Shown: positions 4,678 to 12,254 of the stretch, piece after piece | Position numbering within the stretch: position 1 is the stretch's first letter | Layout of the letters: the number at the start of each line of letters is the position of its first letter | Source: Candidatus Shapirobacteria bacterium | GTDB taxonomy: Bacteria; Patescibacteriota; Microgenomatia; UBA12405 | Direction of reading: 5' to 3' | Assembly: GCA_016188545.1 (NCBI GenBank) | Contig: JACPHO010000005.1 | Coordinates: 1 to 39,742, forward strand | DNA: 39,742 nucleotides | Program-made: the position numbers and the translations under genes | Notes under the pieces: generated by a model | Databases searched by the model: none | What the model saw: the letters and a program-made list of their open reading frames with translations, nothing else | What the model was told of the DNA's origin: nothing

Positions 4678-5871
4678 TTATTTTCCAAACCGCCGCTCGC
4701 GGGAGATGTAGTCAAGGATTGCTTTATCAAATTCTTTTTCATTAAAATCCGGCCAGTAAGTATTAGTAAAATACAATTCACTGTAAGTACTTTGCCATGG
4801 AAGATAACCGCTTAAACGCTGCTCGCCTCCTGTACGGATAATTAAATCTGGGTCTGGCTGACCAGCAGTATATAAAAAATCACTGAATATTCTTTCTGTA
4901 ACTTCTTTTGGTTTTTCTGCAATAATTTTTTGAACCGCTCGTAATATCTCTTCCCTTCCTCCGTAATTGAGTGCAAAATTAACAGTAATACCTGTATTGT
5001 TTTTTGTATCCTCAACAACTTCTTGTATATCTTTTTCAATATCTTTAGGAAAAGCGGAAATATCCCCAAGTGTTTTAACCCGCACATTATTTTTTTTAAG
5101 CTTTGCTACCAAGGAACCACTAAACATACGACGAAATAAATTCATCAGTGCATCTACTTCTCTTTTCTCCCGATTCCAATTTTCTGTAGAAAATGCCCAA
5201 AACGTAAGATATTTAATCCCTAAATCTGCTGCATGGGAAACAGTTGGTTCAATCCGGTTAAAACCATACCTGTGACCAATAAAAACAGGCAACTTTCTTT
5301 CTCGTGCCCATCGCCTGTTACCATCCATAATCATGGCAACATGTTTTGGCAAAAATAAATTTGTCATTGTGTATATAACCCATGGTGTATATTTTTTTTC
5401 TCTTTGTTTTAAAACATCTTTAATAAACTCTTCCCTTTTTACCCAAGCATATTCATAAACAACATCTTTGTTTGGATTTATTTTACCATCATATTCCCCT
5501 AGTAAAATTGCGCAGTATTCGTTTTCACAGTTTTTTCCATACTTTGCAAAATAATTAAATGCGCCAACTTTTTTCAAAGATACAGCACTTATTCCCATTT
5601 CTCTTTTTAGTGAACGAGCGGCTGCCTCTTCATATGTTTCATCATGAGTTGAGTAATGCAAAACATGACTTATTGCGCTTAAATCCCAATATCCATCCCA
5701 AAGTTTGTGTTTTCTCTTCTGCAATAATACTTCCCCTTTTTTGTTTTCGAGTAAGACCACAAACGCGCGGTGATGCAATCCCTGTCTAAGATGACACTTT
5801 TCCTTTTCGGCATACTTACCTAAAAAATTATCTTTTTCGTCAACCAGTAATAACATTTGCTTCTCTTCCAT
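4678..5871 (-). CDS. IPP-isomerase-like NUDIX domain fused to isoprenyl transferase (UppS/cis-prenyltransferase)
   Basis: N-terminus MEEKQMLLLVDEKDNFLGKYAEKEKCHLRQGLHHRAF...WDGYWDLSAISHV...ENEYCAILLGEYDG...YTPW (IDI-1/NUDIX); C-terminus VAMIMDGNRRWARE..GHRYGFNRI..LTFWAFSTENWNR...PDPDLIIRTGGEQRLSGYLPWQSTYSELYF (UppS) in one frame. Confidence 0.88.
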   Translation of the reverse strand: MEEKQMLLLVDEKDNFLGKYAEKEKCHLRQGLHHRAFVVLLENKKGEVLLQKRKHKLWDGYWDLSAISHVLHYSTHDETYEEAAARSLKREMGISAVSLKKVGAFNYFAKYGKNCENEYCAILLGEYDGKINPNKDVVYEYAWVKREEFIKDVLKQREKKYTPWVIYTMTNLFLPKHVAMIMDGNRRWARERKLPVFIGHRYGFNRIEPTVSHAADLGIKYLTFWAFSTENWNREKREVDALMNLFRRMFSGSLVAKLKKNNVRVKTLGDISAFPKDIEKDIQEVVEDTKNNTGITVNFALNYGGREEILRAVQKIIAEKPKEVTERIFSDFLYTAGQPDPDLIIRTGGEQRLSGYLPWQSTYSELYFTNTYWPDFNEKEFDKAILDYISRERRFGK

Positions 5872-5872
5872 A

Positions 5873-6835
5873 TTAAAATAAATGTTCTTTAACCAAGTGT
5901 GCCCCACTACTTGGAAGGTTGATTATAACATCCTTTGTTACAGAAAGCGTTCTTGCCAATGTTGCGACTTTTTCTTTATCTTTTCCCTGACAAATGAGAT
6001 GCACATCTTGTCCCGTATTTAATGTCCAGTATACAGGTATACCTTGTATCCTCCATTTCTCGACGGCCTTTATTACGACAATTGTTTCTGGTTTAAAATA
6101 GATAAGCGGTGGTTTTTGGGTAAGCATAATTGCATGAAGTTCTAACGCTTCTTGTTCGACAAGTTCTCCAAAACTTTCAAAGTCCCTTTTTTGGATTAGC
6201 TTTTTGAGATCTTCATTTTTCTTTTTCATTCTTGATAATCGAACAGCCATAAATGGACTTGATTCTGCGGTCTTTTGACCAACGCTAGTTGACACGTCCT
6301 TTTTTTGGCTGCTTGCAACTACAACCACGTCCGCAATATCATAATAATCTTCTTTGAAAATTTGTATAGCATACGATGTTTCACTTGTATTACCATCGAA
6401 CCATTCAACAAAACCATTAGGAATCGATCGGCACGCAGAACCAGAACCTTGGCGCGCTAAAATTGAGAGCTCTTTTTCGGAAAGCTGCAGCGAAGCAGCA
6501 AATGACGCGGCAACTGTTAATGCAGCAAAACCAGAGGCAGACGAAGAAAGACCAGTGCCTGTTGGAAAATTATTTTCTGACACAACTTTTGCTTTTTGAT
6601 GTATACCTGCTATCTTTCTAATTCTATCAAGATGTTTTATTACTCTGTCTATCTCACCTGGGAGGTGAATTTCATCTTTTTTATATTCATCTAAAAATTC
6701 TACTGTTGTTGTCGTTAACAAATTACTTAAATTCATTGAAATACTTCCATTCTCGGGAATCCGTAACTTCTCATCTTTCTTTCCCCAATATTTGGTAAAT
6801 GCAATATTTGATGGTGCAACTGCGGTTTTTTTCAT
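5873..6835 (-). CDS. mvaD: Diphosphomevalonate decarboxylase
   Basis: MKKTAVAPSNIAFTKYWGKKDEKLRIPENGSISMNL...FPTGTGLSSSASGFAAL...GSGSACRSIPNGFVEW. Confidence 0.93.
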   Translation of the reverse strand: MKKTAVAPSNIAFTKYWGKKDEKLRIPENGSISMNLSNLLTTTTVEFLDEYKKDEIHLPGEIDRVIKHLDRIRKIAGIHQKAKVVSENNFPTGTGLSSSASGFAALTVAASFAASLQLSEKELSILARQGSGSACRSIPNGFVEWFDGNTSETSYAIQIFKEDYYDIADVVVVASSQKKDVSTSVGQKTAESSPFMAVRLSRMKKKNEDLKKLIQKRDFESFGELVEQEALELHAIMLTQKPPLIYFKPETIVVIKAVEKWRIQGIPVYWTLNTGQDVHLICQGKDKEKVATLARTLSVTKDVIINLPSSGAHLVKEHLF

Positions 6836-7797
6836 GACTCTATTCGTACTCCTTCTGCATTAACTGAAACATCAATGACTTGACCTCCAGTATTTTTTAT
6901 TGCTTTCTCAACAAGCCTTCTTTTACTCTCATCAACAAGAGCAATCATACAATCTCCACCTCCTGCGCCAGATAATTTTGCCCCATATGCGCCCCTGCTT
7001 AGCGAGGCAGCAATCATTAAATCTAGTTTTTTGGTACTCACGCCTAAGTTTTTCAAAAACATTTGATTTTTATTCATAAGCTCTCCCGTTTGCTTCCAAT
7101 CTTTCTTTTCTAATGCTTCCTGTGCGTTAGCTACCACTTTTGCGATTTCAATAAACACTTTTGTTTTTCTTGAAACTTGATTGATAATCGCTATTGTATC
7201 TGCTTTTTTACCGCTATACCCAACAACTATTGGAAGCTCTGATACAGATAATGGTTTTACTATTTCCCCTCCAGTTACAAAATACAGTGTTCCACCATAT
7301 ATGGCTGCAGCCACATCAAACCCAGAACCTTTTTTCTGAATATCAATTACTGTTTTGTAAGCTAAATCAAAAATTTGTTTATTATCCAAATTTATATTGA
7401 ACAATTCCGATAATGCCTTAATAACACAAACTGTTGATGCAGAAGATGATCCAAATCCAAATAAGGAACTAAATTCAGATGTAGTTAAAATTTTAATACC
7501 GTGTTTTAAAGGGTATTTTTTAACAAAGTTTTTGACTGCCATCTCAACAAACCTTGCTTCCTTTGGAATATCACCTTTCCCTAACTCGGAAATTGATTTT
7601 TGGTAACTGGTAATGTCTACATCTGGAGCTTGAAGTTCAAAAGATGAGGTATTTGTAAACTCAACTGTTGCCTTCATTCTTTGATTTACAGCAGTAACAA
7701 TACAAGGTTTTTGAAATAGTGCGGCATGCTCGCCAAAAAGCATCAGTTTTCCAGGAGCCGATACAGTAATTTTATTCACGTCGCAATCCCTCCACAC
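6832..7797 (-). CDS. GHMP kinase, probable phosphomevalonate kinase
   Basis: ITVSAPGKLMLFGEHAALFQKPCIVTAVNQR...FGFGSSSAS...KKGSGFDVAAAIYGGTLYF...GAYGAKLSGAGGGDC; the GSGFDVAAA motif fits ERG8/MvaK2-type enzymes. Confidence 0.75.
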   Translation of the reverse strand: MWRDCDVNKITVSAPGKLMLFGEHAALFQKPCIVTAVNQRMKATVEFTNTSSFELQAPDVDITSYQKSISELGKGDIPKEARFVEMAVKNFVKKYPLKHGIKILTTSEFSSLFGFGSSSASTVCVIKALSELFNINLDNKQIFDLAYKTVIDIQKKGSGFDVAAAIYGGTLYFVTGGEIVKPLSVSELPIVVGYSGKKADTIAIINQVSRKTKVFIEIAKVVANAQEALEKKDWKQTGELMNKNQMFLKNLGVSTKKLDLMIAASLSRGAYGAKLSGAGGGDCMIALVDESKRRLVEKAIKNTGGQVIDVSVNAEGVRIES

Positions 7798-8683
7798 CTA
7801 ACTCTGTTTGAAAGAAAGGAAATTTTCTTTTTTTGGCAATTTTTTTAATTATTTCTGGATCTTTGTGATATGTTAAAAGCATACCTACACCTTTTGTCCT
7901 TCCGCCACCGCCAGAAATTTTTGCAGCCCCCCCTGCATTTTCAATTTCTCGGATTATTAATTGCACAATTTCAGAAACAACGCCAATGCTTTCAAGATTT
8001 TTTTCTCCTTGCTTTATAATACGAATAAAATTTTTCTCATCGCCATTTTTTATAACTTCAGCCAGTTCGTTTGTCAATTTCTCTTGGTCTTGTAAAAAAA
8101 AATCAGTAATCCGAGCCAACTTTACCATTTCTGCTGTTGATTCAACTGGTTTTCCGGTGTTAATAAGCACAAAATTTTGTGCTAGTTTTTCGGGTATGGA
8201 AAAGGGCAGGTGTTTGATGATTTTTTCATCTCTATTTATCTTCTGGAACCAAATCAATCCTCCAAAAACTACAGCTGCATTATCTCCACCAGACGGATTG
8301 CCATGAAATACTTTTTCTGCTTCAAAGGCAAGTTTATTAACGCTATTTCTATCCCAAGATATTTTTAAGATTGACAATATTGCTGCAATACAAGCAGCTG
8401 ACACTGCAGCCGATGAGCCAAGACCAGATCCTACTGGGATTTTTGAGTCAATAACAAGTTTAAACTTAGGAATCTCTTTGATGTTATATTCTTTTTTTAT
8501 TATTGGCTCAATAATTTTAGAAATTTTTAATCTACAAGGTTTAGAAGAAGGAGAAATTGAAACCTTAACTCTTAATTCAACTGAATGCAAAAGCGCTGGT
8601 TTTCCATACACCACAGCATGTTCACCAAGAAGATGAATTTTGGCAGGAACAGAAATATTAATATGGTTTGACTTTAATACCAT
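7772..8683 (-). CDS. GHMP kinase, probable mevalonate kinase
   Basis: INISVPAKIHLLGEHAVVYGKPALLHSVELR...PVGSGLGSSAAVSAA...EKVFHGNPSGGDNAAVVFGG. Confidence 0.82.
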   Translation of the reverse strand: MVLKSNHINISVPAKIHLLGEHAVVYGKPALLHSVELRVKVSISPSSKPCRLKISKIIEPIIKKEYNIKEIPKFKLVIDSKIPVGSGLGSSAAVSAACIAAILSILKISWDRNSVNKLAFEAEKVFHGNPSGGDNAAVVFGGLIWFQKINRDEKIIKHLPFSIPEKLAQNFVLINTGKPVESTAEMVKLARITDFFLQDQEKLTNELAEVIKNGDEKNFIRIIKQGEKNLESIGVVSEIVQLIIREIENAGGAAKISGGGGRTKGVGMLLTYHKDPEIIKKIAKKRKFPFFQTELGVEGLRRE

Positions 8684-8954
8684 ATTGAATCACATCTTGC
8701 GGCCTCTGTCTTCCAATGCGACGCACAACCGTCACCACATTTTGTCCTATTGCTGGTTCATCTTCAAAATCAACAAATTGTACTGTTGTACGCTGTCCAT
8801 TTCTAAACTCCACAATCCCTGCATAATACGGTACATCTGCCTCAAATCCAGACGGTGCCACATATACTTTTGTCCACGAAACAATTTTGGCAACTTTACC
8901 TATTTGTTTATGTATATTTTTAGCTTGCCGCCAATTTGAAACTAAATTAGTCAT
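8658..8954 (-). CDS. DUF35 OB-fold protein (acyl-CoA-associated), lacking a zinc ribbon
   Basis: GKVAKIVSWTKVYVAPSGFEADVPYYAGIVEFRNGQRTTVQFVDFEDEPAIGQNVVTVVRRIGRQRPQDVIQYGIKVKPY; DUF35 OB-fold signature next to thiolase/HMGS; no Cys. Confidence 0.82.
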   Translation of the reverse strand: MTNLVSNWRQAKNIHKQIGKVAKIVSWTKVYVAPSGFEADVPYYAGIVEFRNGQRTTVQFVDFEDEPAIGQNVVTVVRRIGRQRPQDVIQYGIKVKPY

Positions 8955-10084
8955 ACTTGTAAAACATGAACTACAACCGTTGCTCCTGTTCCTCCTACGT
9001 TTTGTGCCAGTCCAACTTTTGCACCCTTTACCTGACGGTTTAACGCATTGCCCCGCAATTGATTTGTAATTTCAACTATTTGCTTAACTCCTGTAGCAGC
9101 CAAGGGGTGACCGCAGGCCTTAAGCCCTCCAGATGTATTAACCGGCATTTTGCTGCCAAGCTTTGTTTGCCCACTGGAAACATATTGTCCACCTTCTCCT
9201 TTTTCACAAAAACCCAAATCTTCCATTGCCATAATCTCGGCAACAGTAAAACAATCATGCACTTCTAAAACATCAATATCAGAAAGAGAGACTCCTGCCT
9301 GCCTTAATGCTTTTTCCCCTGCAATTTTTGTTGCCGCAACCTCGGTTAAACTTTTGCGTTTAGCAAGACCAATTGTGTCAGTTGCAACTGTGCTGGCCCT
9401 AATAGCAACACCCTTTCTAACTGATTTTTTTGTAAGAACAACTGCTGCGGCCCCATCCGAGATAGGAGAAGAATCAAAAAGAGTAAATGGATAACTTATA
9501 GAGGGACTACCAAGCACTTTCTCAATCGAGACTTCAAAAGGAAAATGCGCATGTTCATTTAAGCTGGCATGGAAATGGTTTTTTACGGCAACTTGCGCCA
9601 TTTGCTCACGAGTTGTACCAAACTCCTCCATATGTGCTCTTGCCATAAGAGCATACAATCCTGGAAAAGTAAGCCCAGCTAATCGCTCTTCTTCAGCTCC
9701 TGCGCCCATTAAAGCTGTTGTTATCTCACACGTTGACACATCGGTCATTTTTTCAACCCCCAAAACTAAAACTGTTTCATATATGCCAGACAAGATTGCC
9801 GCAACTGCTTGATGTACTGCAAGGCCACCAGATGCACATGCCCCCTCTATCCTTACTGCAGATACTGATAAACCAAGCAGTGTTGCCACAACGGCTCCCA
9901 AATGGTCTTGTCCATCAAGTTTTGAAGACAACATATTAGCCACAAATACTGCATCAATCTTTTTTGTATCAAGACCGCTATCCTCTATTGCTTTGACAGA
10001 TGCTTCCTCGGCTAAATCAAAAATTGATTTATCCCACAACTCACCGAATTTTGTCATTCCAACACCTGCAATTGCTACTTTCAT
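8951..10084 (-). CDS. Archaeal/SCP2-type thiolase (acetoacetyl-CoA thiolase candidate)
   Basis: MKVAIAGVGMTKFGELWDKSIFDLAEEA...IEGACASGGLAVHQAV...VNTSGGLKACGHPLAATGVKQIVEI...QNVGGTGATVVVHVLQV. Confidence 0.9.
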   Translation of the reverse strand: MKVAIAGVGMTKFGELWDKSIFDLAEEASVKAIEDSGLDTKKIDAVFVANMLSSKLDGQDHLGAVVATLLGLSVSAVRIEGACASGGLAVHQAVAAILSGIYETVLVLGVEKMTDVSTCEITTALMGAGAEEERLAGLTFPGLYALMARAHMEEFGTTREQMAQVAVKNHFHASLNEHAHFPFEVSIEKVLGSPSISYPFTLFDSSPISDGAAAVVLTKKSVRKGVAIRASTVATDTIGLAKRKSLTEVAATKIAGEKALRQAGVSLSDIDVLEVHDCFTVAEIMAMEDLGFCEKGEGGQYVSSGQTKLGSKMPVNTSGGLKACGHPLAATGVKQIVEITNQLRGNALNRQVKGAKVGLAQNVGGTGATVVVHVLQV

Positions 10085-11124
10085 AAACATTGCTTATTCA
10101 TTGCGCATTTTGTTAAAAAGTTGTAATCAACGTATACTTTTTGCTCAATTTGAGACAAAATAGTTTTTGTATTTTGTTTTTGAAATGTAATAATATCTTT
10201 TGTCGTTTTTATAATAAATGCATCAGCACCGGCACCTGATCCATAGGAACAGAAAAAAATGGTGTCATTTGGGTGGGCTATATCTAAAACTGCCGCCAGA
10301 CCAGCTAGAGATGAGCCAGAATACGGATTGCCAATTTTATCAACCACAAAACCTGCTTGGATTTGTTCGTAATCGAATCCAAGCCGCTTTGCCACCTCTT
10401 TAGGAAACTTGCCATTTGGCATATGAAATACTGCATAAGTAAAATCGCTTTGCTTCTTTTTTACTTTTGCAAGAAGTGTCTTTGATGCATTAATAACATG
10501 GTTAAAATATGCTGGTTCTCCAGTAAACCTGCCTCCATGAGATGGAAATGCTTGGCCGTCTCTTCGCCAAAAATCTGGCGTGTTTGAGGTAAAAGAAACA
10601 AAATCAACAATTTCTGCAATAACTCGTTTTTTTCCAAGGATATACGCTGCCGCTGCACTTGCCGCTGTGTACTCCAAAATATCTCCCTGTTTTGCTTGGG
10701 CAACATCACTTCCAATTGCTAATCCATAATCAATTTTGCGACTCGCAACAAGTCCCCACAGAAATTGCATGCCTGCAGTTGCGGCTTTACAGGCAAATTG
10801 CAAATCCGCTGCAAAATAATGATTGCCAACACCAAGCATTTCTCCAACAATGGTTGAGGTAGGTTTTACTGCATAGGGATGTGATTCTGATCCAACAGTA
10901 ATTGCTCCAATTTTTAATGGGTCAATTTCCCCATTTGTTAGTGCTCTAAGCCCTGCTTCAACAGCAAGTGTTGCTGCGTCTTCATCTGACGATGCTATTG
11001 CTTTTTCTTCAATCTGCAATCCTGCAGTTACTTCCGCAGAGTCTCTTTTTAAGGCCTTGGCAATATCCGAAATTTTTATTCTGTATTTTGGGATATATGT
11101 GCCGTATGAAACAATACCAGTCAT
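10081..11124 (-). CDS. Hydroxymethylglutaryl-CoA synthase, archaeal type
   Basis: MTGIVSYGTYIPKYRIKISDIAKAL...ADLQFACKAATAGMQ...GGRFTGEPAYFNHVI...FHMPNGKFPKEVAKRLGF...GNPYSGSSLAGLAAVLD. Confidence 0.92.
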   Translation of the reverse strand: MTGIVSYGTYIPKYRIKISDIAKALKRDSAEVTAGLQIEEKAIASSDEDAATLAVEAGLRALTNGEIDPLKIGAITVGSESHPYAVKPTSTIVGEMLGVGNHYFAADLQFACKAATAGMQFLWGLVASRKIDYGLAIGSDVAQAKQGDILEYTAASAAAAYILGKKRVIAEIVDFVSFTSNTPDFWRRDGQAFPSHGGRFTGEPAYFNHVINASKTLLAKVKKKQSDFTYAVFHMPNGKFPKEVAKRLGFDYEQIQAGFVVDKIGNPYSGSSLAGLAAVLDIAHPNDTIFFCSYGSGAGADAFIIKTTKDIITFQKQNTKTILSQIEQKVYVDYNFLTKCAMNKQCL

Positions 11125-12254
11125 CTTTTTTCTCTTCCTAACCTTTCGTGTGCACGCGCTAACGAACCTTCTGCTAAACTTGCCAACAATGATAATTCTC
11201 CAGCAAGCACTGCTCCCGCAATAATTTCTGCAAACTCTTTGGAATTTTGAACTCCCATTATTGATAATGCTTCTTTTTGAGTGGCAAGATTTGTTCCACC
11301 ACCAACTGTTCCCACCATAAGTGCCGGCAAATAAATAGAAAAATATAAATCTCCATTCTCTAAAATTTCTGCATCTGTTACTCCCAAGCTCCCTTCCACA
11401 ACGTGGGCAGGATCCTGCCCGGTTGCCAAAAATATAGCAGCGATAATATTGGCAAAATGGGCATTAAAACCCAAAGAGCCGCTTAGAATAGAACCTAAGT
11501 GAACTTTTCGCTCAACCACCTCTGCAATTTTCTCGGGCGTAGTTTTTAAGATTTCTCCAACAACTTTTTTAGGCAGAACAACTTCTGCCCAAACCTTTTT
11601 CCCCCGTCCTAAAATAAAATTTAACCAGGCAGGTTTTTTATCTATATCAAAATTGCCAGCTAAAGACACACATGTTGCTTTGGTTTTTTGCTCAATTATT
11701 TTTGCCATTTCTTCTGTTGCTATAGTTACCATATTCATGCCCATGGCATCCTGGGTATCAAAATAAAATCTGACAAATAAATTTCTGCCTAAAACTTTAT
11801 AATCCGCTTTTAGCAATTTTAAGTGTGATGAGGTGCTTGCAGCGATTTTAGCTAAATACTTAAAATTTTCTTCAATCCAAATTTCGGCCTTCATTGCCGT
11901 ACCTAAATTTTTGGCTTTAAAAACAGGACCTCTGGTCATGCCGACATTTTCTACATAAACAGTGGCTCCTCCTGAAAGAGATATTGCCTTACACCCCCGA
12001 TTAACCGAGGCCACCAGCGCTCCTTCTGTAGTTGCCAAAGGCAGATAATAACTTTGATCATTAATAATTTTTAGAGGACCGGCAATGCCTAGTGGAACGT
12101 GGATTGCGCCGATGACGTTTTCGCAATTTCGAGAGGAAACAATTGCCTCATCAAATGCATATGAGGCAATATTTTGCAGTTTTATTTGTAACTCTTTTTC
12201 AACTCCAACTCTTCGCTCTTTGGCGCTTTTGAAGCCTCGTAAGTCCACAACCAT
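11121..12254 (-). CDS. Hydroxymethylglutaryl-CoA reductase, class I-like
   Basis: ENVIGAIHVPLGIAGPLKI...LATTEGALVASVNRGCKAI...DAMGMNMVTIATE...GSLGFNAHFANIIAAIFLATGQDPAHVVEGS...GTVGGGTNLATQ. Confidence 0.93.
   Translation of the reverse strand: MVVDLRGFKSAKERRVGVEKELQIKLQNIASYAFDEAIVSSRNCENVIGAIHVPLGIAGPLKIINDQSYYLPLATTEGALVASVNRGCKAISLSGGATVYVENVGMTRGPVFKAKNLGTAMKAEIWIEENFKYLAKIAASTSSHLKLLKADYKVLGRNLFVRFYFDTQDAMGMNMVTIATEEMAKIIEQKTKATCVSLAGNFDIDKKPAWLNFILGRGKKVWAEVVLPKKVVGEILKTTPEKIAEVVERKVHLGSILSGSLGFNAHFANIIAAIFLATGQDPAHVVEGSLGVTDAEILENGDLYFSIYLPALMVGTVGGGTNLATQKEALSIMGVQNSKEFAEIIAGAVLAGELSLLASLAEGSLARAHERLGREKR

Follow-up and report, generated by a model that had tools for sequence, protein, structure and literature searches.

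The stretch of DNA analysed here, referred to as the window, comprises 39,742 nucleotides and carries on its minus strand a mevalonate operon transcribed in the order HMG-CoA reductase (HMGR), HMG-CoA synthase (HMGS), thiolase, DUF35, two GHMP kinases (MVK1 and MVK2), decarboxylase and an IPP isomerase-undecaprenyl diphosphate synthase (UppS) fusion (Table 1). Adjacent genes of the operon overlap, and three of the junctions are of the ATGA type. An earlier note on this DNA had described an HMGS-thiolase-DUF35 set joined by ATGA overlaps at 10081-10084 and 8951-8954, and both overlaps and the coordinates of the set were found to be right. The additional ATGA overlap at 11121-11124 joins HMGR to HMGS in the same way, indicating that the three-gene set stands at the head of a complete mevalonate operon. 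The overlap between HMGS and thiolase uses the second ATG of the thiolase frame (10084), the first being at 10090, and the thiolase is 377 aa long if translation starts at 10084.

Table 1. Genes of the mevalonate operon in the window, in order of transcription
Gene product	Length (aa)	Coordinates	Strand	Evidence
HMG-CoA reductase (HMGR), class I	377	11121..12254	-	PF00368 1e-126; TIGR00533 443.3 bits, cut-off 441.8
HMG-CoA synthase (HMGS), archaeal type	347	10081..11124	-	TIGR00748; 6esq_I 1.4e-104
Acetoacetyl-CoA thiolase, SCP2/archaeal type	379	8951..10090	-	PRK06064 484 bits, cut-off 420; 6esq_A 1.2e-90
Ribbon-free DUF35, no Cys	98	8658..8954	-	PF01796 only; AF2; Foldseek; alignment
GHMP kinase MVK1, probably mevalonate kinase	303	7772..8683	-	TIGR00549 160 bits, cut-off 163
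GHMP kinase MVK2	321	6832..7797	-	TIGR00549 185 bits
Diphosphomevalonate decarboxylase	320	5873..6835	-	TIGR01240 268 bits, cut-off 171
Type I IPP isomerase (Nudix)-UppS fusion	409	4678..5907	-	PF00293 45-176, PF01255 193-408, single ORF

The description of the set as archaeal in type within a bacterial operon was borne out, as HMGS scored 423.9 bits with the archaeal equivalog TIGR00748 (cut-off 353.35) and just 123 of the 360 bits set for the bacterial TIGR01835. The nearest solved relatives of HMGS, thiolase and DUF35 are chains of one archaeal complex, 6esq, with 6esq_E the best match for DUF35, and the window thus holds three adjacent genes that are each homologous to a 6ESQ chain. Downstream, the two GHMP kinases and the diphosphomevalonate decarboxylase make up a lower mevalonate pathway of the classical, eukaryote-type kind. 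MVK1 clusters with the sole GHMP kinase retained by most members of a family designated f75, and MVK2, which by HMM scores alone would be called a mevalonate kinase (TIGR00549), is probably the phosphomevalonate kinase, as argued from f75 below. Since the operon ends in the IPP isomerase-UppS fusion, it probably yields the cell-wall lipid carrier.

The window (1-39742) is a whole contig (G000:C2), and contamination of the genome bin to which it is assigned is 4.4%. The bin has two copies of dnaX, one in the window and one on G000:C4, which are 40% identical. The window's dnaX and rpsB are nearer to those of other families than to those of the genus of the bin, and no copy of the thiolase was found among the members of that genus and its family that were sampled. 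The contig was probably mis-binned within the class, which leaves the DUF35 finding unaffected. The host bin is an unsafe guide to the organism that carries the window.

The ribbon-free DUF35 protein

DUF35 scaffolds have been described as always two-domain proteins: the pairing of a zinc ribbon (PF12172) with an OB fold (PF01796), defined on SSO2064, was published as 'conserved in all DUF35 homologs' (PMC2954200), and all DUF35 structures solved by 2019 are zinc-binding (PMC6996347). The window protein shares the PF01796 OB fold with SSO2064 and is without the PF12172 domain. PF01796 was its sole Pfam family over cut-off (40.8 bits, gathering score 27.1), and the OB fold was recovered both by an AF2 model built with 66 relatives (pLDDT 90.7), which has a helix at residues 4-17 followed by five strands, and by Foldseek, in which the top PDB matches of that model were chains F, E and G of 6esq (TM 0.72). 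The absence of the ribbon half and of any Cys from the 98-aa protein, as claimed in the earlier note, was therefore upheld, with no match to PF12172, and proved general to the class. A search of the open-access literature for a ribbon-free DUF35 found none.

We considered whether a ribbon might be supplied by an unrecognised upstream start or in trans by a small separate protein. The 39 open codons upstream of DUF35 in frame encode four Cys; they lie inside the 3′ end of the thiolase gene and encode these residues by chance. A longer start carrying a CxxC ribbon was rejected, since no ATG, GTG or TTG is present upstream in frame, the extension would overlap thiolase coding sequence, and its Cys would precede the N-terminal helix, while in DUF35 the ribbon comes after it. 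The claim of a ribbon-free protein thus stands. Relatives in which a gap separates the thiolase and DUF35 genes are equally ribbon-free, and no PF12172 match over cut-off was found anywhere in the genome bin, which may not be the right genome. A ribbon from either source is largely refuted and is the least probable of the readings weighed here.

An alignment of 66 ribbon-free sequences with 61 ribboned ones from archaea and a few other bacteria placed the missing part in a single block of ~34 columns that includes both CxxC pairs. Outside this block, W8, R9, P42, R78, Y91 and K94 are retained in at least 92% of both the ribbon-free and the ribboned sets, and Y43 and I89 are also among the OB residues kept on both sides of the alignment. 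An R-Y pair at the end of the helix is nearly fixed in the ribboned proteins and lost in the ribbon-free ones.

Distribution and loss of the ribbon

A scan of 382 genomes across the phylum gave 30, the window's own included, with a strong HMGS of this kind, and a scan of 382 genomes of the class found the thiolase in 113; 80 class loci were fetched. One of the loci, L073, is Candidatus Levybacteria MFNO01000022.1, which places the class in Microgenomates. A ribbon-free DUF35 lies directly after the thiolase in 75 of the 80, mostly at 92-104 aa, with some ORFs longer at the start or tail. The recurrence of the same gene order and the same ribbon-free protein in these loci is far beyond chance, and the comparison of DUF35 lengths across CPR relatives proposed in the earlier note extends the finding beyond a single genome. 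Two of the other loci run into a contig edge. The remaining three (L203-L205) belong to a divergent family, f166, with a thiolase 41-44% identical and a divergent mevalonate operon, and encode a DUF35-like protein of 158-164 aa that has a CxxC-CxxC ribbon and scores under the Pfam cut-offs. Their classification as loci without any DUF35 was rejected on inspection, which identified this protein as a divergent ribboned DUF35.

These counts also bear on whether the protein is a degenerate, non-functional remnant being lost from a shrinking genome, as might be suspected from the small genomes of Patescibacteria and from an 88-aa form in one member of family f33 (L044) that is trimmed further. We regard this as highly improbable, given that the gene is kept in nearly all of the class loci, that its predicted fold is confident, and that W8, R9, P42, R78 and Y91 are invariant across 66 ribbon-free sequences that are 24-52% identical to that of the window.

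Outside Patescibacteria, 62 of 63 nearby DUF35s have the four-Cys ribbon, 60 by the strict pattern and two (L080 and L103) through a CxC variant; the exception (L064:4973-5377), from a DPANN archaeon by its tree position, is a full-length protein with other residues in place of all four ribbon Cys, a separate loss. Elsewhere in the phylum the ribbon is kept in families f47 and f73 and in one f33 genome. L038 encodes a ribbon-free DUF35, and L039 has a ribbon-length stretch without Cys that is plausibly an intermediate of ribbon loss.

An HMGS+thiolase tree of 95 rows, obtained by a quick search, was built without L044, for which the alignment had no thiolase. In this tree a branch with SH-aLRT 98 separates all Patescibacteria from archaea and an Ignavibacteria/WOR-3 group. 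The Patescibacterial side holds both ribboned and ribbon-free members, indicating that the ribbon was lost inside the group. As read from the tree, it would have been lost at least twice, with one loss in the main clade and another in L038/L039; the placement of L049 and L051, which sit on long branches, is unsure. L044 suggests a third loss, since L049, also of f33, keeps the ribbon.

The earlier note had attributed the pared-down protein to a reduced genome, and this part of the claim did not hold. The four-Cys ribbon is kept in Patescibacteria with equally small genomes of 0.9-1.4 Mb (G040, G087, G130 and G039) and in DPANN archaea, indicating that ribbon loss tracks lineage and not genome size; the presence of ribboned f166 within the same class shows that the ribbon is compatible with the lineage. 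No convincing change specific to ribbon loss was found in thiolase or HMGS, a 3-5 residue loop deletion near thiolase residues 223-227 being present also in Patescibacteria that keep the ribbon.

A guanylate-kinase-like fusion in family f75

In family f75, sampled as 12 genomes in a first scan and 26 in a later one, mevalonate operons without the second GHMP kinase encode a ribbon-free OB domain fused to a guanylate-kinase-like domain (L047, L048, L050 and L052-L060; for example, L055:6197-7117), the predicted structure of which is a guanylate-kinase fold (1gky, TM 0.89 by target). The first 11 genomes each encode a normal stand-alone gmk in addition to the fused guanylate-kinase domain, making two such domains, and two GHMP kinases only, whereas the operon in the window's class contains three. 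The generalisation from these 11 of 11 that all f75 genomes have two GHMP kinases failed in the larger sample, where 5 of 15 further genomes deviated, four having three and one having none. Because the f75 decarboxylase passes the diphosphomevalonate cut-off, a phosphomevalonate kinase is needed in this family, and a search of f75 for IPP kinase, which would mark the alternative route, gave no match over cut-off.

Residues are numbered as in E. coli gmk, in which a Ser, a Glu, a Thr and an Asp lie on the guanine side of the site. The P-loop Lys, Arg42, Tyr54 and Tyr82 are all present in the fused domain, and in 12 of 12 fusions the GMP-site residues are replaced (Ser by Ile, Glu by Ala, Thr or Ser, Thr by Tyr, and Asp by Glu), while all four are retained in the 11 of 11 stand-alone gmk proteins of f75. 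Four f75 genomes (G879, G863, G830 and G849; L240, L241, L242 and L243/L244) carry an extra cassette of window-type MVK2 and decarboxylase, which, judging from the tree, was either gained at least twice or gained and lost. The catalytic residues of the fused kinase are lost in three of these four, whereas it is intact in 20 of 21 f75 genomes with two GHMP kinases (Fisher p = 0.007, uncorrected for relatedness). The exceptions are G849, with both the cassette and an intact-looking fused kinase; G871, with R42H despite two GHMP kinases; and G107 (L245:4498-5256), in which no GHMP kinase was found and a guanylate-kinase-like relative of the fusion lacks the OB fold.

An active site that is intact in 20 of 21 genomes without the extra GHMP kinase and broken in three of four with it suggests the fused domain as a candidate new phosphomevalonate kinase. 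The simplest reading of these sequence patterns is that the fused domain is a phosphomevalonate kinase and that MVK2 would do the same job in the window. A guanylate-kinase-like phosphomevalonate kinase was not found in a search of the open-access literature. For Peribacteria, the published account gives genes for the steps as far as mevalonate-5P and again from mevalonate-5PP onwards, calls the pathway 'near-complete', and lists no enzyme for the step between the two (PMC4736985). Family f75 could be Peribacteria, with a protein Cys content of 1.63% in f75 loci compared to the published 1.67%. If so, the candidate phosphomevalonate kinase, of an unexpected fold, would supply a step whose absence from the mevalonate pathway of these uncultivated bacteria has been documented.

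A likely thiolase-HMGS clamp and its known counterparts

The part of DUF35 that is kept corresponds to the primary interface and the part that is lost looks accessory, and for this reason we think it likely that the window protein is a helix-plus-OB scaffold that still clamps thiolase to HMGS. Gene order, the loss of the ribbon only, residue conservation, the predicted fold and the recurrence of the loss across the clade were read directly from the loci and models; binding and channelling would follow by analogy with the 6ESQ and 9MYR families. The helix and OB fold would grip thiolase and the OB side would grip HMGS, so that the two enzymes would share a CoA site and acetoacetyl-CoA would be condensed without release. 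Consistent with this proposal are the OB-kinase fusion of f75 and a natural HMGR-HMGS fusion of 760 aa (L038:7209-9491, genome G368), which is followed by thiolase and ribbon-free DUF35. Against it, thiolase in 6ET9 is faced by the cleft that the ribbon forms with the OB fold (PMC6996347), and loss of the ribbon therefore takes away part of a known interface; the failure to find a thiolase change specific to ribbon loss and the ribboned f166 in the same class count on this side too.

It is also conceivable that DUF35 no longer bridges and serves either as a subunit of thiolase only, as in the Ltp2 and Sal aldolases, or as an OB protein binding CoA or acyl groups. DUF35 is paired with a thiolase-fold protein alone in 6OK1, 9MYR and 7PXP, which the window model also matches in Foldseek, and acyl-CoA binding was proposed for SSO2064 (PMC2954200). 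However, the top match in both sequence and fold is a DUF35 that bridges to HMGS, HMGS is the constant neighbour of DUF35, and positions conserved among the archaeal bridging proteins are still conserved here, making a non-bridging role unlikely.

With thiolase-HMGS clamping as the preferred reading, a class that is almost wholly without the ribbon, in a phylum where it was independently lost more than once, amounts to a natural deletion experiment. It suggests that clamping depends on the helix and OB fold and that the ribbon is accessory, and the ribbon-free form would offer a compact part for enzyme-channelling work. We lean slightly towards a broader proposal, in which ribbon-free DUF35 is a minimal portable scaffold, the f75 fusion supplies a new phosphomevalonate kinase outside the GHMP family and fills the Peribacteria gap (if f75 is Peribacteria), and, with the HMGR-HMGS fusion, more than two steps may take place in one assembly.

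The mevalonate pathway has already been reported in CPR and Peribacteria (PMC4736985, PMC11052028), the same kind of bacteria and the same pathway as in the window, with DUF35 unmentioned in the searched passages of those reports. The PhlABC and MucABC acyltransferases and the Sal-Shy and Ltp2-ChsH2 aldolases, all among the Foldseek matches, likewise have an OB-fold subunit clamped on a thiolase-fold enzyme; they differ in their chemistry and in having a zinc ribbon where one is described, that of Shy being a Cys3His1 variant (PMC12329534). Compared to 6ESQ, the window DUF35 is without the four-Cys zinc ribbon (~34 residues), and its operon is bacterial and also includes HMGR and the lower mevalonate enzymes of eukaryote type, while the gene order is that of the archaeal loci and the helix and OB fold of DUF35 are kept.
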